From the NCBI GenBank assembly GCA_963383645.1, contig OY726578.1, forward strand, positions 19,008,092 to 19,072,091: a stretch of DNA of 64,000 nucleotides. The letters are read 5' to 3'. The first letter of the stretch is position 1; every line of letters begins with the position of its first letter. The position numbers and the translations under genes were made by a program. Source of the stretch: Muscardinus avellanarius (lineage: Eukaryota > Chordata > Mammalia > Rodentia > Gliridae). Under the pieces are notes generated by a model that made no database searches, had not been told where the DNA came from, and saw only the letters and a program-made list of their open reading frames with translations. Below are positions 479 to 52,340 of the stretch, in pieces.

Positions 479-690
479 GCCGGGCGTGGTGGGCACGCTT
501 GTCATCCCTGTGCTTGGGAGGCTGAGACAGGAGGATCGCGCAGGTTCGAAGCCAGCCTCAGCTACTTAGTGAGGCTCTCAGCAACTTAGTGAGACCCTGT
601 TTCCAATAAAATATAAAATGGGTCTGGGAGTATAGCCCGGAGGTAGAAAGCCCCTGGGTTCCTCCCCCAGTACCACCAAAAAACAAAAAT
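479..690 (+). mobile_element. B1-dID SINE, complete, with target-site duplication
   Basis: This is a full dimer: B1-type left monomer, A-rich linker (ATAAAATATAAAAT), and an ID-type right monomer ending in CCCAGTACCACCAAAAAA. The flanking duplication is AATAATCTACACGTT at 464-478 and AATAATCTACATGTT at 691-705 (one mismatch). It belongs to the subfamily with GGTCTGGGAGTATAGC in the right monomer. Confidence 0.93.
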
Positions 691-705
691 AATAATCTAC
701 ATGTT

Positions 706-983
706 CACCGTGTGTGACTACATAGTATTGGTGTTTATTTTACTGTGAAATTATCTCCCCCAAATATTCAGGTAATCTGGGCACTCCTGGGTAAAGTGCT
801 GCTTATTTTGTCAGATGGCTTTTCCTACCCCTGAGGCCACTGGAGTATACAAATACTCTAATTTCAAAACCCCTTTCTTAAGTTGGCCCTGGTTCTAGTC
901 ACTTCTCTACCCAGCCATCTTCTACAGAGCTCTTTGAGTTATCTTTGTCAATTTTAGTTCTGATCATCTAATTGTCTTTTGTA
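706..983. other. unique DNA, nothing recognised
   Basis: Pyrimidine-leaning single-copy sequence with no recognisable repeat or coding potential. Confidence 0.4.
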
Positions 984-1152
984 CCTGGGCATGGTGGCCT
1001 GTAATCCCAATACTTGGGAGGCTGAGACAGGGGGATCGTAGGTCTGTGGCCAGCCTCAGCTCAGTGAGGCCCTCAACAACTTAGTGAGATATAGTTTCAA
1101 AATAAAAACTAAAGCAGACATGGGAATGTAGCTTAGAGGTAGAACGCCCCCC
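984..1152 (+). mobile_element. B1-dID SINE, older, partial right monomer
   Basis: The left monomer is clear (TGGGCATGGTGGCCTGTAAT). The right monomer decays after TAGAACGCCCCC, about 20 bases before the next inverted SINE. Confidence 0.85.
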
Positions 1153-1171
1153 AAACTGCCACTTCCATCTG

Positions 1172-1341
1172 TGTGTGCAGTACTGCGGATTGAACCCAGG
1201 TGTTACCTCCGAGCTACACCCCCAGCCCTTTTTCTTTTTTCTTTTGAAACAGAGCTCCACTCCATTGTGGAGTCTGGCCTTGAACCTATGGTCTTTCCCA
1301 CTCAGCCCCCAAGTCCTGGGATCACAGGCTTGTGCCAGCGG
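1172..1341 (-). mobile_element. B1-dID SINE, inverted neighbour of the preceding copy
   Basis: The ID monomer comes first (TACTGCGGATTGAACCCAGG) and then a shortened B1 part ending CAGGCTTGTGCCAG. With the copy at 984-1152 it forms a tail-to-tail pair able to fold as inverted repeats. Confidence 0.88.
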
Positions 1342-1812
1342 GTCACTTGAAAAGCCTTGGACAGCTTCCTGTTGCCCTGAGGATGAAGCCCACCCTTTGT
1401 TACCTTGCCAGGGTGTGTCACGAGCCGCCATCTGTGCGGCTGGCTGCTGCTCGCGCCGCTGTCTGTGCCCGCCCTGGCCTCTGCAGGGCTCCACTTCCTC
1501 AGAGTTAGTCGGACCCACTTCCTCGCCGCCGAAGCGCTCTCTCAGCCCTGTCTTTGCTGCTGCGAAGTCCTTCCTTCTCGCCTGCTGTGTGCAGATGAGA
1601 GGACCTTTGTGAGCCCAGGGCCCTGAAGCAGCTCTCCAGGAGGCTGCGCTGTCCACCAGCTGCAATGGGCTCTGCTGCCGCCTGGAGCTGGCTTTCATGT
1701 TAGGTTTGAGGTTGAGGTCAAAGTTGAGACAGTTTCCTCCGTGTGAATTTCCATCTGGCCCCGAGCTGGGGTTCAGGAGGAGCACTGGTTGCTCCTGTGT
1801 GAAAGGAAGAAA
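1342..1812. other. unique DNA, nothing recognised
   Basis: Moderately GC-rich. Frames of 60-145 codons on both strands run into the adjoining SINEs and show no protein family I recognise. Confidence 0.4.
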
Positions 1813-2022
1813 GGGCCGAGCGTGGGGACACACGCCTGAAATCCCCGTGCTTAGGAGGCTGAGACTCCAGGGCCGCAGGGTTGCAGCCAGCCTCAGCTAC
1901 TTAGTGAAGCCCTCAGCAACTTAGTGAGACCCTGTTTCAAAATAAACAATTAAATAGGACTGGGGGTGTAGCGCAGAGGTAGAATGCCCTTGAGTTTAAT
2001 CCTTAGTACCACCACAAAAAAA
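1813..2022 (+). mobile_element. B1-dID SINE, complete
   Basis: Both monomers are present, with a linker AAAATAAACAATTAAATAG and a short A-tail at about 2015-2022. Confidence 0.9.
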
Positions 2023-2046
2023 TAGTAAAGAATAAAAGTGTTATTT

Positions 2047-2221
2047 TGGGGGAGGTACTGGGGACCGAACCCAGGGGCATTCTACCTCTGGGCTGCACCT
2101 TTTGAGCCAGAATCTGGCTGAGTTGATTGCCTCGCTAGTTGTCGGGGCTGCCCACGTCAGCTTGGGATCTTCCTGTCCCGGCCTCCCAAGGTCGGGGATT
2201 GCGGCGCAGCACCGCCCGGCT
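2047..2221 (-). mobile_element. B1-dID SINE, internally deleted
   Basis: The ID monomer (GGTACTGGGGACCGAACCCA) is followed almost directly by B1 sequence. Most of the linker and its poly(T) complement are missing. Confidence 0.85.
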
Positions 2222-2416
2222 AGGTATGAAGTATCCAGAGCTCTGCGCGCCCCCCTGCTGACCTCTCTATCTGTGCCTGTAGCACATTGCCCCTTGACTG
2301 TAGCAAACCTTGGGCCACATCCCAGCCCTGCTGGGACTTTTAAATCCGTGCAGATAGCTCATAATGATGGTCGCAGCTGTTCTAATCAAGGTCCTCTGGC
2401 ACTCCGGCTTCCGGGT

Positions 2417-2521
2417 GCACGAGCGCGTGCATGTGTGTGTTGTTTTAGGATCAGCCCATCCCTCCGTGCGCACGAGCGCGTGCATGTGTGTGTTGTTTTA
2501 GGATCAGCCCGTCCCTCCACC
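2417..2521. repeat. 53-bp tandem duplication
   Basis: Two head-to-tail copies start with GCACGAGCGCGTGCATGTGT at 2417 and 2470. I see only about two differences between copies. Each contains the palindrome-like GCACGAGCGCGTGC. Confidence 0.9.
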
Positions 2522-3007
2522 TTCCTCCCTCAAACGTCCTGCTGGAATTCTGGCTGGAATAGCCTCGAGACCATAAATATATCTGAGTCTTAAATGACAT
2601 AAACATGGAATATTTCTCCACTTAGGCCATACACATCTCTTCCAGCTCTGCTTTTATACTTTTCAGTGTCAAGGAAAGACAACTGCTTGTCTTTCCTTAA
2701 TTTCATTCTCAAACTTGTGTGTTTGTTATTGTAGATGATATTTTTAATTTTTTTTTTCTCCTGCTTCCTCCTTGACCCAGGTGTCAGCTGCCCTGGGAAG
2801 AGGGTTATTTGCTTAGCCATCTGTATTTCCCCTTTTCCTTGTTACAGTTTATAATATATACATTTAAGTAACATATGTGAGTTACTGGTGTAAGAGATTA
2901 AAACACTATCTTTTGAAAAAGCACCTCCCGTCACCAGTTTGGAGTTACACTGGATTTGTGCTCTCCACCATGAAAGCTATTATCACGTGAGGCTATTGAG
3001 CGTTTTT
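2522..3007. other. unique AT-rich DNA
   Basis: Single-copy sequence between the tandem duplication and the next SINE. I see nothing in it. Confidence 0.4.
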
Positions 3008-3330
3008 GGCCGGGTGCAGTGGTGTGTACCCGCAATCTAGTACTTGGGAGGCTGAGAAAGGAGGATCCCAGGTTCACAGCCTCCTCAGCAGCGTCGTGAG
3101 ACTCTCAGCACCTCATCAACACCCTGCTTCAAAAGTAAAAAATAGGCCTCTCTCACTTTGGGGGGATTCCCATTCTCCCTTCAATGTGTATTTCCTACTT
3201 TCCTAAAGAAAATTCCATGTCTCTGAAAATAAATAAATAAAAATAAATAAATAAATAAGTAAACCAAAAGGACTGAGCATATAGCTCAGGGGTAGAATGC
3301 CCCTGGGTTCAGTCCCCAGTACTAAAACAA
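3008..3330 (+). mobile_element. old B1-dID SINE with extra sequence and expanded linker
   Basis: The left monomer is at 3008-3144 and the ID monomer at about 3265-3330. Between them lie about 75 bp of unrelated sequence and an (AAAT)n stretch at 3226-3262. Confidence 0.75.
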
Positions 3331-3333
3331 ACA

Positions 3334-3566
3334 GTCGGGCGTGGTGGCGCGCGCTTGTCATCCGCGCGCTTGTCATCCCCGCGCTTGGGAGGCTGAGACA
3401 GGAGGATCGCGCAGGTTCGAAGCCAGCCTCAGCTACTTAGTGAGGCTCTCAGCAATTGAGTGAGACCCTGTTTCCAAATAAAATATAAAATATAGGTCTG
3501 GGAGTATAGCTCGGAGGTAGAAAGCCTCTGGGTTCTACCCCAGTACCACCAAAAAAAAAAAAAAAA
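3334..3566 (+). mobile_element. young B1-dID SINE with 15-bp internal tandem duplication
   Basis: A full dimer with well-preserved CpGs. GCGCGCTTGTCATCC occurs twice in a row (3349-3363 and 3364-3378) in the 5' part of the B1 monomer. It abuts the preceding SINE directly. Confidence 0.92.
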
Positions 3567-3587
3567 CCAAACAAACAAATAAATAAT

Positions 3588-3856
3588 AAAATATGAGTAG
3601 TTTGAATTGAGATGTACTATAAATGTAATTTGTACTGTAGACTTTAAGACTCAGGATGAATATAGAGATTGCAAAGTATGTCCACTAAGTTTTTATATTT
3701 ATTATAATATACTGGTAATATTTTATATATTGAGTTAAATAAGGTATGTTAATAAAATCAAATTTATTTTTCATTTTTAACATTTTTAGTGGTTACTAGA
3801 AAGCTTAAATTACATTCGTGGCTTATATTTTTATTGAACAGTGAGATTCTAGCATA
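3588..3856 (+). mobile_element. ancient DNA transposon fossil, hAT/MER3-like
   Basis: The segment resembles a common mammalian hAT-Charlie-class fossil: TTGAATTGAGATGTACTATAA near the start, then ATTGAGTTAAATAAGGTATG, and GTGGCTTATATTTTTATTG near the end. I name the family from memory only. Confidence 0.5.
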
Positions 3857-4299
3857 TTTTCTATGCACTTAAGTATACACACACAGAGACACACACACAG
3901 AAATGTATGGTTTTGTTTCCCTTTTTAAATTTTTTCATGCTAAGAAAATAAGTATAGTTTGGCATTTTTATGTTTTTGATTGACATGTGACGTTTGTACT
4001 TAGGCGTACAGTATGAGAACTCGGTCCATGGCCAAGTGCAGTGAAGGAATGAGGTGATCCGCAATCCCGTCTTACAGACCATTTCTGTGCCGGGAGCTTC
4101 AAACGCTGCTCCTTGAGTTATTCTGAAACACCAGAGTATCGCGCCCCGAGTTGCTCTAGGACTGAGAACTGCTTCCTCCCATCTCCCTGGACTTGGTGCC
4201 TGTCTCTGGCCTCTGTCTCTCCCTCCCTCCCCTTCTTAGCCTCTAGAGACCTCTCTGCTTCCACAAGTGGGTGAGGACAGGCAGTGCTTGTCTTTCTCT
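3857..4299. other. unique DNA with short CA/GA-rich patch
   Basis: A short ACACACAGAGACACACACAC patch lies at about 3877-3898. The rest is unremarkable; 4190-4290 is pyrimidine-rich. Confidence 0.4.
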
Positions 4300-4711
4300 G
4301 CCTGGCTTGTTTCACTTAACGTAATGTCTCCAGTTCCATACAGGTTGCTGCAAATGACAGACTTTCTATTTTAGTGGCTGAATAATATTCCATTATAGAC
4401 ACATACCATATTTTAAAAATCCATTCAACCATTGATGGACATCTTTCCTGTCCCAGAGCTTGGCTTTCGTGAGTGGTGCTGCAGTAAATGCGGGTGTGCA
4501 GACATCTCTGTGGCACAATGATGCCCTTTCCCTGGGCTATACGCCCAGTAGTGGGATTGCTGGTTTGTTGTATTTTTAGTCTTTCGAGGACCCTCCATAC
4601 TCTTTTGCATAACTGCTGCACCAACTCACATTCCCGCCAACAGTGTACAGACTTTCCTTTTCTCTGTACCCTCACCAATACTTGTTGGCTCTGCTCTTTT
4701 TCTAATCTGTC

Positions 4712-4932
4712 ACTTTATTTTTTGTTTTGTGTATGTGTAATGCTGGGGATGGAACTCAGGGGCACTCTAACTCCGAGCTGCTCCTTGGCCCTGTTTTGTT
4801 TTGTATTTGGAAACAGGCTTCACCAAGTTGCTAAGAGTCTCATTACATTGTTGAGTCTGGCTTTGAACCTGTGGTCCTCCTATCTCAAACTCTCAGGTAT
4901 GGGGATCATAGGTGTGCACTCCCATGCCTGAT
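4712..4932 (-). mobile_element. B1-dID SINE inserted in the old L1
   Basis: T-rich tail, ID monomer (AATGCTGGGGATGGAACTCA), T-rich linker, then B1 monomer ending CCATGCCTG. Old L1 sequence flanks it on both sides. Confidence 0.88.
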
Positions 4933-4994
4933 TTCTCTACATTTTTTTTATATAATAGCCCTCCAACAGGTGCAAGGTGACATCCTCCGATCTT

Positions 4995-5233
4995 ATTTAT
5001 TATTTATTAATTTATTTATTTTTATTTTTATTTTTGCAGGTCTGGGGATGGAACCCAGGGGCATTCTTCCTCCAAGCTACACCCCCAGCCCTATTTTTTA
5101 TTCTTTATTTTGAAACAGGGTCTCACTGAGTTGCGAAGGGCCTCACTAAGTAGCTGAGGCTGCTCACAAAGCACAATCCTCCGGTCTCAGCCTCCCGAAT
5201 GCTGGGATGACAAGTGTGCGCCCCCACGCCCGC
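4995..5233 (-). mobile_element. B1-dID SINE with TTTA-expanded tail
   Basis: A complete young-looking dimer in minus orientation. The A-tail has become a (TTTA)-type microsatellite at about 4995-5035. Confidence 0.9.
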
Positions 5234-5239
5234 CTCCAC

Positions 5240-5425
5240 AATCATTTTATTTTTTATTTATTGGTGCAGGATAGCTTTCCATGGTAATGTAGTCGGTAGT
5301 GATCTTGACACACGTGCACACAGCACTCGGTGCCCCGCCCCCTCCGCGCCCTCCGTCCCATGTTGAGATGGTGCTGTGTTCTCTCCCCACCATCATTCGG
5401 CTTCTTATTCCCTCGTGGCTAGTGA
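5240..5425 (-). mobile_element. 3' end of the local L1 family, truncated copy
   Basis: In minus sense it ends in TGCACCAATAAATAAAAAAT after a G-rich tract. This is the same terminal block seen at 36285-36466 and 50033-50180. Confidence 0.65.
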
Positions 5426-5660
5426 TGGCCAGCACCTCTCACTTGCCTATTTTCCATGGCCAATGCCTTCTTTAAAAAAGTGTCTTGCCCATTTTCTAAT
5501 TGGGTTATTTGGGGGTTTTACTGTTGCCTTCTGTGAGTAGCTTACACATTTTGGATATTAACCCCGCATCGAATATATGGTTTGAACATTTCCTTCCATC
5601 CCATAGTTTGCTTTTCATCTCGCTCTGCTCTGCGGACGTTCTTGTCTGATGGAGGCCGCT

Positions 5661-33666: not shown

Positions 33667-34464
33667 ACGGAGACTTTGGGGAAGATGGCGACCGAGAAAA
33701 GCGGGGCTTAAGAGCCCCGCTAACAACCAATCTCCATTACCACAAAATCAGCACCTTTCATAGCCAGAAAACACCATCACCAGAGAAACAAAAAAATCAC
33801 CAGGCTCCAGAGAGAAAGCGGACTGAGAACAGAGCTCAGAGCCACAGAGGAGATACACCGGCCTCATGCCCGAGGATGCGGCAGCAGCACCATACTGCCA
33901 GCAGCAGCGGCAAGTTCACCGGACGGCTACAGCAAGCCGAGGTGAGCCGCTGCGGAACAGCCAGGCGGAATTTTTTGGAGCAGGGAGCATCTATAACTCC
34001 CAGTGGCTGAGCTCAGCACACACTGCAGGGACTCAGAGTGGAACTCAAAACCAGAGAAGAAATAAGCCAGCCTCACGGCCGAGGGCGTAGCAGTGGCGCC
34101 ATATTGCCACTGGCGGCGGCAGCAGCGAATTCACCGAGTCCAGTACAGCTACATCTGCGTACTCAAGAACAGTGAGTCAAATTGCGGGCCTCAGAGGAGA
34201 AATCCCAGTACTGTACTCCCTGGGACTTGACCCAGTGGGGGAGTGGCGGTGGCAGAGATATCACACCATAGGAGAACGTGCAACCTGGCACCCCCCATAG
34301 TCTAAAGCAGCCTCCATCGACTCCCTGGGTCAGAGACTCTGTGATACAACCCAGAAAAGGAGTAGTGGGCTCTGAGATACTACAGACTCGAGATCCAGAG
34401 CACCTTAAGTGAAGTCATAGTGACCCAAGGGAACAACCCAGAGAAGGCACAAACTTCCGAAATC
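33667..34464 (+). promoter_or_regulatory. L1 5' UTR / internal promoter region
   Basis: It starts a few bases before GGGGAAGATGGCGACCGAG, the expected position of the L1 YY1 site. The region is GC-rich and holds two diverged copies of a roughly 209-bp unit: GCCTCATGCCCGAGG near 33861 and GCCTCACGGCCGAGG near 34070, each followed by a CAGCAG/GGCGGC-rich stretch and TTCACCG. Mouse and rat L1s carry about 200-bp promoter monomers; whether these are homologous is not shown. Confidence 0.75.
33682..33689 (+). promoter_or_regulatory. YY1-type site at the L1 5' end
   Basis: AAGATGGC matches the YY1 core and lies about 16 bases inside the element. In human L1 a YY1 site at this place directs accurate transcription start. 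Confidence 0.7.
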
Positions 34465-35382
34465 ATGGGAAAGAGGAATAACACTGGAGCAATGAATTCC
34501 CACAACCCCACAACATCAGAACCCGATAAAACAGAAAATCAAAGATTTCTAGAAGATCAAATCAGGAAAATAACTGTAGAAATAATAGAGGTGCTTCGAA
34601 AAGAACTCAGAGACAGCCAAAAAGAGATAAAGGATGCAATTAATGAAGTAAAGGCCTCAATTCAAAGCACAAACAACCGATTAGACCACATGGAGAATAG
34701 AATCTCACTCTTAGAAGATGATCATTCCAAAAATGAACGCATAGTTTCTAATCTAGAAAAAAATATCTGACAGCAGGAATCTGACATTGAAGAAATATGG
34801 GCCCATTTTAAGAGAGCTAACCTAAGAATAATTGGAATAGAGGAGGGAAAAGAAAGTGAAACCAAAGGGATCAACAATCTCTTCAAGGAAGTAATAGCAG
34901 AAAATTTTCCAAACATAGAGCAAGAGGTTGATACACAGATCCAGGAAACTTATAGAACTCCCTTTAGACAGGATCGGAGAAGAGGATCCCCACGCCACAT
35001 AATTGTCAAAATGACCAATGTGGAAGCCAAGCAGAGAATCTTAAAGGCAACAAAAACAAAGGGCCAACTGACATTCAGAGGCAAACCAATTAGAATCACT
35101 CCAGACTTCCCAAACCAAGTCATGAGAGCCAGAAGGGCTTGGAGTAACATATTCCAAACTCTGAAAGAAAACAACTTCCAGCCAAAAATTTCCTACCCAG
35201 CCATACTTTCTATCAAATTAGATGGAAAAATAAGAAGCTTCCATGACAAACAGAAACTGAAGGAATTTATGTCTTCAAAACCAGCGCTAGAGAAAATACT
35301 CAAAGAGATTAACTACAAAGAAGAAATAGGTAACACACACCAGAACCAGAGAAACAAGATTTTCCATCCAACAGACAACTAA
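34465..35382 (+). pseudogene. L1 ORF1 (ORF1p), one in-frame stop
   Basis: ORF1p is the L1 RNA-binding chaperone that trimerises and coats L1 RNA in the cytoplasmic RNP. The first ATG gives MGKRNN, the typical start; an upstream GTG at 34420 is in frame but less likely. The frame is 306 codons including its terminal TAA, with a TGA at codon 102 (34768-34770) as the only internal break. Residues about 28-100 are charged heptad-like sequence (coiled coil). RRM-like sequence starts near residue 118 (LRIIGIEEG), and the C-terminal domain runs from about 178 (HIIVKMTNVEAK) to the end. The length is close to, but shorter than, primate ORF1p (338 aa). No ORF2 follows. The conservation of the frame points to a relatively young copy. 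Confidence 0.88.
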
Positions 35383-36284
35383 GATTGGTTATCTGTGGAG
35401 ATTCATTATTTATGTTAGTCTTTTACCTATCTCTAAATGGTATTGTTTGCCTTTATTGTTGGTAATTTTTAGGATTTCTAGTTGGAATATTAATATACCT
35501 TCAGATATAGCATTTGGAAATATTTTATCCAATTCTATTAGTAACTTTTAACTCTGTTTACATTGTCTTTGGATATACAATATTTTTTATTTTTTAGGGA
35601 GTTTGTATACTCTTCTGTTGCCTGTGCTATTGAAATCATATCCAAGAAATCACTGCCAATTTCAATGTTGTGAGGTTTTATGACCCAGATTTTCTCCTAA
35701 AAGTTTATAGTCTTAAGATTTATATTTAGGTCTTTTATCTATTTTGAGTTAATACTTGTATATGGGATTAGGTAAGGGTCCAATTTTATTCTTTTCCATG
35801 TAATTATTATTTTTCAACAATATTTAGTTAAAAGATTATTATTTCCACCACCAAATGTTCGTGGAAACCTTGTCAAAAATAACTTGACAATATAGGGAAG
35901 AATTTAGCTCTAGGCTTGTACTTAACTCCAATGGTTTATATATCTGCCTTTAGAACAGTACTACACTGTTTCAATTATTGTAGCTTTATATGGTTTGAAA
36001 TCAGAAAATATATATCTTCTAGCTTTGTTCTTTTTCAAGATCGTTTTGGGTATCTAGAATCCATATTCCATATTAGGATAGATTTTTTTCTGAAAAATAA
36101 ATATATAAATATATGATAGTTTCACCTAAAAATAGAAAAAAATATTCTCTGGTAAGAAAGAAAGCAAAAAGAAATATTGAAATGTTATCTTTAAGTCATC
36201 AAAAGCTTGGTATCAGACAAATGAAACTGTTATGTGAGATTATCATTTTTAATTTTGGATAAATTGCTATAATACTAGATATCA
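35383..36284 (-). mobile_element. antisense old-L1 segment inside the L1 chimera
   Basis: From about 35600 to 36110 the minus strand resembles the C-terminal part of ORF2 of an old L1M-type element (minus-sense TGATTTCTTGGATATGATTT; plus-sense GTACTACACTGTTTCAATTA). It has many stops. Its low-coordinate edge has no poly(T), so it is not an ordinary later L1 insertion. 35383-35600 and 36116-36284 are AT-rich and not clearly assigned. Confidence 0.65.
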
Positions 36285-36466
36285 ACCACTAAGCCAAGCA
36301 TGGGAAGGAGGGGTGGGGAGAGAATGGGGTGGGGATCGGGTGGGGGCTGACTGGGCGATGTGTGCATGTATGTCTACAAAAGTTTGTATCCCACTATGAT
36401 GCATGAATACAGTGCACCAATAAAAATAAATAAATAAATAAATAAGATAAAAATAAAAATAAAAAT
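36285..36466 (+). mobile_element. 3' end of the local L1 family
   Basis: A G-rich tract (GGGGTGGGGAGAGAATGGGG) is followed by ATGAATACAGTGCACCAATA, AATAAA and (AAAT)n. The block is homologous to minus-strand 50033-50180. Confidence 0.85.

Positions 36467-49897: not shown

Positions 49898-49902
<5 letters not shown>

Positions 49903-49945
<43 letters not shown>
49903..49945. repeat. (TTA)n microsatellite
   Basis: About 14 ATT/TTA units. Confidence 0.95.
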
Positions 49946-50002
49946 TTGGTTCCCTTTCTCCAAACTTTCTGTAGTTCCTTTATCACTTTCTTATGCTGTT
50001 GT

Positions 50003-50016
50003 TGCTAAACTACTTT
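50003..50016. repeat. target-site duplication, left copy
   Basis: TGCTAAACTACTTT pairs with TGCTAAACTGCTTT at 52072-52085 (13 of 14 identical). It brackets the composite retroposon. Confidence 0.85.
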
Positions 50017-50032
50017 TTTTTTCTTTTTTTAA

Positions 50033-50180
50033 ATTTATTTTTATTGGTGCATTGTAATCATACATCACATTGGAATACAAGACTTGAGAGGATATACAAG
50101 CACACATCATCCAATTAGCCCTCATCCAGCCCCCATCCCATTCCCTCCCCCTCCCTAGATCCCATGCTTGTTTGGTGATT
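50033..50180 (-). mobile_element. L1 3'-end module of the composite retroposon
   Basis: In minus sense: CAAGCATGGGATCTAGGGAG, a G-rich tract, GATGATGTGTGCTTGTATAT, and ACAATGCACCAATAAAAATA. The same order occurs in plus sense at 36290-36440. Confidence 0.82.
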
Positions 50181-50429
50181 AACTTTGATACATTTGTTTA
50201 TGTACCTCCTGAGTTTTAAAGAGGCTCCATCCTCCCCTATTCCATACCCTCTGATTGGTCACCTTAATTGCTTCGCTATAGGGCCCTTTCTATAGCTCGA
50301 CCACTTCCTGTTGCCTGTTTCCTCCTAGTTATTGCTGATTAGGGGAAGCATCTGGTTTTAATTTTCTGTGATATTTCTCTGTGCATGCCGCGTTGCAAAT
50401 ACCGATCCCACTCTTGACAGCCCCATTTG

Positions 50430-50860
50430 TGGCCTGGCTACCCGGTGGACTGATCAGACCTCGCTGGCTCAAGCAATGGCCTTGCCTCACGGAAGGCCCT
50501 GGTTCTGGCCTTGCTGGCCCCAACACTGGCCTAACCCCTCAGCTGGCTCCTATCCCAGCCTCAGAGGCCCCAGCACTGGCCTTCCTCACAGCAGGCTCCG
50601 ATGTTAGCCGATGGCCCCGGCATCGGCCTAACCCCTCCGCAGGCTCCGATCCAGGTCTCGGAAGCCTCAGTAGCGGCCTTGCCTCACGGAAGGCTCCGAT
50701 GCCGGCCGTTGGCCCTAGCACCGGCCTAACCCCTCGGCAGGCTTCGATCCCGGCCTCGGAGGCCCCAGCACCGGCCTTGCCTCATGGCAGGCTCTAATCC
50801 CAGCTTTGCTGTGTTCGTCACCGGCCTCATCCCTCGGCAGGCTCTAATCCGAGCAACCTC
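50430..50860 (-). repeat. about 49-bp tandem repeats, two alternating types (98-bp period)
   Basis: CCTAACCCCT-type motifs begin at 50530, 50627 and 50725, with CCTCATCCCT at 50825, a 97-100-bp period. Each period holds two related halves of the form CCGGCCT ... GGCTCCGAT ... CGGCC ... CCCAGCA. Confidence 0.85.
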
Positions 50861-50889
50861 TTTGCCTAACCATTTGTCCCACATTCTCG

Positions 50890-51250
50890 AGGGTGCATGG
50901 TGGTGGTAGCATTCTGCCTCTGGGGTTATTACTTCAAAGGTTCCAGGTGTAATGTATCAGATCTCTGCCTCCCCTGAGTACTGGCCACTGCCATTGCCAG
51001 TGCCTCCACCATTTCAAATCTTTCCCAAGCTCTTTTTCCACTCTGAATGTTGTCCAGTCTTCCTAAGCATGCGCAACGGTAGCATTCAAACTTTGGTGTA
51101 ATTTCTCAAAAAATAAAATAAAATAAGGTTGGTAGGCTCTGATTTCTGCTTCTCCTGAATACAATTCTCCACCGCCAACGCGGAGACCACTTTCACTACC
51201 GCCTTTCTCCTTGGTCTCCGCTAAAGTCTCTCTCCTTACAGGTGATGTCC
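50890..51250 (-). repeat. two diverged about 173-bp tandem units
   Basis: TAGCATTC starts matched stretches at 50907 and 51080. Both are followed by a TTxxGGTGTAAT/GGGGTTATT-like segment, TCTGCxTCxCCTGAxTAC and a CCACYGCCA stretch. Confidence 0.6.
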
Positions 51251-51419
51251 AAGATTCTTAACAATGTAGAGAAGAAGCAGTCCTCCTTAGCGGGGAATTT
51301 TTCCAATAATTTCAGTTCATTTGGATAAGTTTTGTCTGCATCTCCAGTATCCTGGCATCCGCCACCTCCTTGATCCCTCTCCGATATTTTCCTTTTTCTT
51401 TTTCTTTTCCTTTCTTACA

Positions 51420-52071
51420 GGGTCCTTCCGGGTGGAGAGGGGTTTGCCTAGGAGCCCCACCCAGCGCCTGCCCACCCGCCCAGGGTCAGGGGCCCAGGGA
51501 CCCGGACCACGGGGTCCTTCTGGGTGGAGAGGGGGTTTGCCTAGGGGCGCCCCACCAGCGCCTGCCCACCCGCCCAGGGTCGGGGGCCCAGGGACCCGGA
51601 CCACGGGGTCCTTCTGGGTGGAGAGGGGGTCGCCTAGGGGCGCCCCACGAGCGCCTGCCCACCCGCCCAGGGTCGGGGGCCCAGGGACCCGGACCACGGG
51701 GTCCTTCTGGGTGGAGGAGAGGGGGTCGCCTAGGGGCGCCCCGCCAGCGCCTGCTCACCCGCCCAGGGTCGGGGGCCCAGGGACCCGGACCACGGGGTCC
51801 TTCTGGGTGGAGGAGAGGGGGTTGCCTAGGGGCGCCCCGCCAGCGCCTGCTCACCCGCCCAGGGTCGGGGGCCCAGGGACCCAGACCACGGGGTCCTTCT
51901 GGGTGGAGGAGAGGGGGTCGCCTAGGGGCGCCCCGCCAGCGCCTGCTCACCCGCCCAGGGTCGGGGGCCCAGGGACCCAGACCACGGGGTCCTTCTGGGT
52001 GGAGGAGAGGGGGTCGCCTAGGGGCGCCCCACCAGCGCCTGCCCACCCGCCCAGAGTCAGGGGCCGGGGGC
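51420..52071 (-). repeat. GC-rich VNTR, seven 92-96-bp units
   Basis: Unit starts (plus strand GGGTCCTTC) at 51420, 51512, 51606, 51699, 51795, 51891 and 51987. The last four are 96 bp apart and nearly identical, and the outermost is truncated. Each unit has CCCGCCCAGGGTC (a GC box on the minus strand) and the palindrome GGGGCGCCCC or a near match. Because 96 is a multiple of three, long frames (up to 259 codons) run through it in several frames; they are not genes. Confidence 0.95.
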
Positions 52072-52085
52072 TGCTAAACTGCTTT
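52072..52085. repeat. target-site duplication, right copy
   Basis: TGCTAAACTGCTTT, the partner of 50003-50016. Confidence 0.85.
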
Positions 52086-52340
52086 AAATCTCATGCCTAA
52101 AACATGAATGAGCAGGAAGACTGTTTTGTGCTTTTATTTTTATATGATTTCAAAATTATGAGAAAGTTGTAGGAAACATACAAGGAATTCCTGCGTACCC
52201 ATTACTCAGATTCAGTCATTATTTTGCACCGCATGGTTTACAGTGGTTTCTCTTTTCTTATGTATTTTTTATCTTTTGAGAGAAACATTACAGACATTTA
52301 TTTTTTACCTCAGTACTTCACTTTGTACTTAGTGAGGGTA
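52086..52340. mobile_element. ancient L1M-like 3' remnant
   Basis: GAGAAAGTTGTAGGAAACAT, GCGTACCCATTACTCAGATT and GAGAGAAACATTACAGACAT resemble a common old mammalian repeat that I believe is L1ME-type. Confidence 0.45.

Follow-up and report, generated by a model that had tools for sequence, protein, structure and literature searches.

A dispersed non-coding composite of two tandem-repeat arrays and an L1-type 3' end in Muscardinus avellanarius, likely mobilised by L1

According to PMC4432496, composite retroposons with a variable number of tandem repeats (VNTR) are confined to hominoid primates. A locus of Muscardinus avellanarius raises the question of whether such elements may also have arisen elsewhere. 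It lies in a stretch of 64,000 nucleotides (contig OY726578.1, positions 19,008,092 to 19,072,091), the whole of which we call the window, and occupies positions 50017-52071 on the minus strand. Our reading, to which we give a probability of about 0.77, is that it is a copy of an interspersed, L1-dependent, non-coding VNTR composite, likely transcribed from an array of 96-bp units and inserted in trans. The observations behind this reading are several: copies are dispersed, their modules follow the same order in the samples read, duplications lie flush with the array in over half of the testable copies, young copies are nested in older ones, a truncated copy begins with an inverted piece, and the starts prefer one phase of the repeat unit. 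In the sense direction, the whole composite consists of modules V94, M173, V49 and T3 (50017-50459), as follows:

50003..50016, no strand: target-site duplication, 3' copy relative to the element, TGCTAAACTACTTT
50017..50371, minus strand: L1-type 3' end, including a G-rich tract and the A-rich tail (T3 89-443), from alignments to the tail of locus L043 and to window 36284-36455
50372..50459, minus strand: 88-bp link joining the 49-bp array to the L1-type end (T3 1-88), present in most copies read across the join
50460..50871, minus strand: V49, array of ~49-bp GC-rich units, 412 bp in the window copy, from Tandem Repeats Finder (TRF) and copy spans
50872..51419, minus strand: M173, 548-bp middle module with a weak internal repeat, from self-comparison
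51420..52071, minus strand: V94, seven GC-rich units of 93-96 bp, 5' end of the element and predicted promoter array, from TRF, unit spacing and start phase
52072..52085, no strand: target-site duplication, 5' copy relative to the element, TGCTAAACTGCTTT; the sense site is GATTT/AAAGCAG

A first-pass annotation of this DNA had described a complete composite retroposon without open reading frames (ORFs), and most of its anatomy holds. The 14-bp flanking duplication has the single mismatch that was reported, and the poly(A) claimed for the minus strand is found as an A-rich tail. TRF places V94 at 51420-52065 (period 96, 6.8 copies, 94% matches), with an ungapped unit spacing of 94, 93, 96, 96, 96 and 96, which agrees with the seven GC-rich units counted before. 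For V49, TRF gives periods of 50 (5.9 copies, 50516-50805) and 98 (3.2 copies, 50478-50794). When diverged edges are counted, this array has about eight units in ~412 bp, where the earlier annotation had about nine. The two units of about 173 bp proposed for the middle module are not borne out. What is found there is a 34-nt core at 74% identity and a self-match of ~290 bp at 56% (E = 0.49), and M173 is handled as single copy because this internal repeat is so weak. The description as free of ORFs stands as far as Pfam goes: none of its ten sense-strand open stretches of at least 50 aa gives a match above cut-off (two sub-cutoff matches are at chance level), and no L1 ORF1 or ORF2 domain is found in them. 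Rfam gives no match at E <= 0.1 in 49900-52200. Exact patterns have 0 matches in viral and prokaryotic collections, which may not include this genome.

Is this a single curiosity or a family? The genome searched was the window's own assembly, with 2.497 Gb in 104 contigs. When the whole element is the query, 11,444 first-look candidates are found, and the 40 that were scored have 110 matches between them. First-look candidates for single modules, which are not copy counts, number 1,408 for V94, 3,745 for M173 and 1,470 for the L1-type end. A 27-mer of M173, taken from the relative L034, has 706 exact matches in the genome (370 forward, 336 reverse), while its reversed control has 0. The window copy is one base off this 27-mer, so the family is at least this large. 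Of 54 copies, a sample in which close relatives are over-represented, 39 keep a 24-mer within this word unchanged. The window copy is thus not the only one. Copies have different flanks, many have duplications of their own, and they start in the same module (V94) with a varying number of repeats, as the first-pass annotation had predicted for a mobile family. Its reading of the locus as an SVA-like non-autonomous family is supported by these copies, by the module order and by the duplications.

The order V94-M173-V49 is found in all 19 non-self V94 loci fetched (20 were fetched of 40 scored). For M173, 30 loci were fetched of 40 scored, including the window copy itself and two repeats of known loci: 20 reach T3, 8 leave the fetched sequence still within V49, and 2 depart, L052 into unrelated sequence after V49 and L043 into a different L1-like tail. 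The L043 tail, which follows a truncated V49, was considered as a second type of 3' end and rejected; we take it as an older neighbour. In a further sample on contig C1, designed to reduce the bias of best-hit ranking, 20 listed pattern matches were taken, about every third by coordinate; V49 follows M173 in all 20 of these 252-bp slices, for ~94 bp only in L111. Reading ~440 bp upstream of 10 of the 40 best T3 matches, we find V49 in 9 of them, L085 having an insert like a short interspersed element (SINE); the tenth is the truncated copy L089, which starts with a small inverted part of this region. A tblastn search of the same ten slices with an L1 ORF2 fragment gave no match. The 88-bp link is present in most copies read through the join. 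Some loci were fetched more than once (L052 = L010, L053 = L002, L009 and L029 = L001, L045 = L060, L056 = L061): L009, L029 and L053 have been excluded from copy lists, and L052 has been kept in the 55-copy phase and divergence lists. M173 diverges from the column majority by 1.5 to 6.3%, with a median of 3.1% and a non-CpG median of 2.1% (55 rows, one locus twice). The rows were chosen by likeness to the query, so these values describe a young-looking branch, not the whole family.

How did the copies reach their sites? We have compared the flanks of 17 copies with both ends, requiring a match to end at most 6 bases from the V94 start: a direct repeat with a score of at least 11 is present in 9 of the 17 copies, as against 2 of 272 mismatched pairs. 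A second test was enlarged by three bigger loci and ten further 3' slices, and L043 (score 5 in the first test) was left out; for L038, L039 and L058, whose 3' ends were ill-placed with alignment scores below 60, scoring began where the added slice begins. In this test, a score of at least 11 at the V94 start is reached by 17 of 29 copies and by 37 of 812 mismatched pairs. The sense strand ahead of the matched repeat reads GATTT/AAAG in the window copy, TTTTTTAA/CAGT in L031, AATATT/AAAA in L044 and TATTTAAG/ACTT in L046. The L1 endonuclease has a target consensus of the T/A type, and these insertion sites are consistent with it. One truncated copy, L089, has at its start a short stretch of itself in inverted orientation; 5' inversions of this kind are known from L1. 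Judging by these structural signs (duplications, A-tail, T/A-rich sites and inverted start), mobilisation in trans by L1 is likely.

Young copies are also found within the L1-type ends of older copies, at about 749-4215 in L062 and about 663-5587 (minus strand) in L061, with duplications legible by eye at the junctions. The young copy of L062, which extends from V94 to A-tail, interrupts the older L1-type end at CTCTTT/AAAACACATGATATA; beyond it, the older sequence continues with AAAACGCATGATGTA. In L061, the older copy halts at CCACATGC and resumes with CCACATGCTTTCCC past the young copy. Four tandem-looking loci (L056, L057, L061 and L062) had been considered as a dimeric subfamily, a candidate which we have rejected: the junctions of L061 and L062 read as insertions into older copies. 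In L057, only one junction was seen. L056 and L057 are found 3 Mb apart on contig C10 (44.34 and 47.39 Mb) in opposite orientation, 87% alike and with a common nested junction, a pattern suggesting that the locus was duplicated afterwards.

Where would transcription begin? In 54 copies, V94 measures between 72 and 1180 bp, or from under 1 to about 12 units. Copies do not begin at any point of this array with equal frequency. Mapping the starts of 55 copies onto the 96-bp unit puts 20 in a single 8-bp bin (phase 8-15) and 39 in phase 0-31; the Rayleigh R is 0.55 for these copies, which are not mutually independent. Random 5' truncation would scatter the starts over the unit, and a phase preference is observed instead. 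The word GGGCGGG occurs once per unit in all seven V94 units of the window copy; no exact TATAAA or AAGATGGC was found. From this we infer that each V94 unit may bear its own initiation site, as in mouse L1 5' untranslated regions (UTRs). Transcription would then start within V94, each 96-bp unit having its own initiation site, and the array could gain or lose units and still give a transcript, as mouse L1 monomers do. V49 also varies in length: its 31 complete spans, the window copy (412 bp) among them, measure 203 to 1413 bp. A large V49 of about 2.5 kb, six times that of the window copy, is seen in L060 (1577-4107).

The other end of the element would supply the tail. The terminal block had been described as homologous to a local L1 3' end, and T3 does have 76-77% identity to window 36284-36455, a stretch which ends a family with a Pfam-confirmed L1 ORF1. 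The last ~150 bp of T3 match the end of this family at 74-81% in 10 of 11 other fetched copies; the eleventh matches over 26 nt only (E 0.65). T3 89-441 can be aligned throughout to the L1-like 3' end of L043. The first bases of the L1-type part are probably the last codons of ORF2, as read by eye; 26 ORF2-like residues of the L043 tail, also read by eye, have no match in a PDB search. AATAAA words are present close to the T3 end. Since T3 is L1-type and has AATAAA near its end, it likely supplies polyadenylation and the tail primed by ORF2p. The L1 proteins ORF1p and ORF2p would act in trans on the composite RNA, whose L1-type 3' end would provide polyadenylation and the primed tail. A match to a full-length L1 along the whole length was not found in the comparisons covered: the L1-like part is the last ~355 bp. 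The 5' UTR of the local ORF1-bearing family gives only short, chance-like matches to the element, of at most 31 nt (best E 0.005).

Several results weigh against our reading. Among the 55 starts, 16 lie outside the preferred third of the 96-bp unit, and this sample counts one locus twice (L010/L052) and includes one probable duplicated pair (L056/L057). GGGCGGG is found within the first 70 bp in just 23 of 54 copies. In the second duplication test, 12 of 29 copies score under 11, A-rich tails push the control up to 37 of 812, and they also obscure the exact nick. Both nested copies are among the low-scoring ones (10 and 8); we nevertheless consider them strong because the family's own sequence provides the uninterrupted target site. 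Finally, the 40 candidates scored in each search are the most query-like, and older branches are under-sampled.

Could the element be the remnant of something else? The main rival is an internally deleted L1: an autonomous L1 subfamily of this genome would have V94, M173 and V49 as its 5' UTR, and the element would have arisen from it by loss of ORF1 and most of ORF2. V94 would indeed act like a promoter-monomer array, as the tandem monomers of mouse L1 do (PMC11602158), and the 3' end is L1-type. The same enzymes would move such a derivative, and what differs is its origin. Evidence against this origin comes from both sides of V49, which follows M173 in every contig C1 sample and precedes T3 in nine of the ten upstream slices, where the ORF2 fragment gave no tblastn match; in addition, the local ORF1-bearing L1 family has an unlike 5' UTR. 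We consider a deletion derivative unlikely.

A processed host transcript with repeat exons, which captured an L1-type 3' end and was briefly amplified, appears improbable. For M173 and the 88-bp link, no relatives outside the family turned up in this analysis, and the lack of Rfam and above-cut-off Pfam matches would also suit such an origin. No source gene was noticed, however, among matches which were not screened for gene annotation or introns. Least probable of all, to the point of being hardly credible, is spread at the DNA level, by which the element would be a satellite-like block or one multiplied by segmental duplication. The two tandem arrays and the probable duplicated pair on contig C10 are what it would lead us to expect, but matches are found on many contigs, with duplications and A-rich tails, and the copies inserted within older copies, together with the duplication test, largely contradict it.

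If the element is an L1-dependent VNTR composite, which known systems does it resemble? SVA elements carry an A-tail and target duplications. They are non-autonomous composites of hominoids, of the class without long terminal repeats, which have a GC-rich tandem array and are mobilised by L1 in trans (PMC4432496, PMC13174262). The family described here shares with SVA a composite, non-autonomous make-up and GC-rich VNTRs whose unit number varies between copies (V94 and V49). On the other hand, it does not have the CT-hexamer array of SVA: neither the element nor the first 200 bp of any of 55 copies has two consecutive hexamers of the CCCTCT type. The Alu-like and SINE-R parts of SVA were not noticed here by eye, no alignment to them having been made. 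The present family also differs in having two unrelated arrays, an array as its 5' end and an L1-type 3' end. It would work like an SVA, but we have not filed it as a member because the CT-hexamers are absent and the Alu-like and SINE-R parts were not noticed by eye. LAVA, a gibbon VNTR composite with a 3' domain made of U1-AluSz-U2-L1ME (PMC4432496), is similar in that it combines a VNTR with an L1 piece in the 3' domain. In our case, however, the L1-type piece is ~355 bp long, is sense-oriented and runs into the tail of the element itself. HAL1, or half-L1, elements keep ORF1 and have lost ORF2. They are also non-autonomous with an L1-type 3' end, whereas our composite has no ORF1 domain by Pfam. 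The monomer units of mouse L1 are about 200 bp long. These tandem monomers form its 5' UTR and are joined by a tether to ORF1 (PMC11602158). Tandem 5' units of variable number are a common feature, but the mouse array leads by its tether to ORF1, and no L1 domain follows the array here according to Pfam.

We find it rather probable that an SVA-type composite was born independently outside hominoids, from an expandable 96-bp promoter array, a second expandable array and a natural L1 3' end. We also lean towards the view that it unites the promoter-monomer strategy of mouse L1 and the VNTR-composite strategy of SVA in one L1 parasite. If true, the family would be a convergence test of what a tandem array does for a parasite of L1, and the features it has in common with SVA (a GC-rich array and a variable number of units) would be candidates for function. 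No SVA-like family in squirrels or other rodents was found in the titles and abstract openings surveyed, with repeat libraries and subscription papers outside this scope. Quiescence of long interspersed elements, SINEs or both has been reported for ground squirrels (Platt and Ray 2012, as cited in PMC5857283). A family of this kind would bear on L1 activity in ground squirrels if its host were a sciurid; the first-pass annotation and the SINE type both point towards a squirrel or a closely related rodent.

Other L1-derived sequences are found in the window. On the minus strand, 4319-4714 is a C-terminal fragment of L1 ORF2, whose best PDB match is LINE-1 ORF2p (E 1.5e-16); the sequence downstream of it is unlike T3 by eye. 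On the plus strand, 33680-36451 belongs to a second young, non-autonomous, L1-derived family with a HAL1-like plan, the ORF1-bearing family mentioned above. It consists of a non-repeated 5' UTR, which differs in sequence from V94, M173 and V49, an ORF1 with one in-frame stop and both L1 Pfam domains, ~900 bp in which no ORF2 is visible, and an L1-type 3' end. Eleven other copies were fetched: identities are 95.2-97.3% for 8 of them and about 91.5-95.0% for the other 3, and in several the match extends over ~2.8 kb. Its ORF1 has 39 other scored matches at 98-99%.
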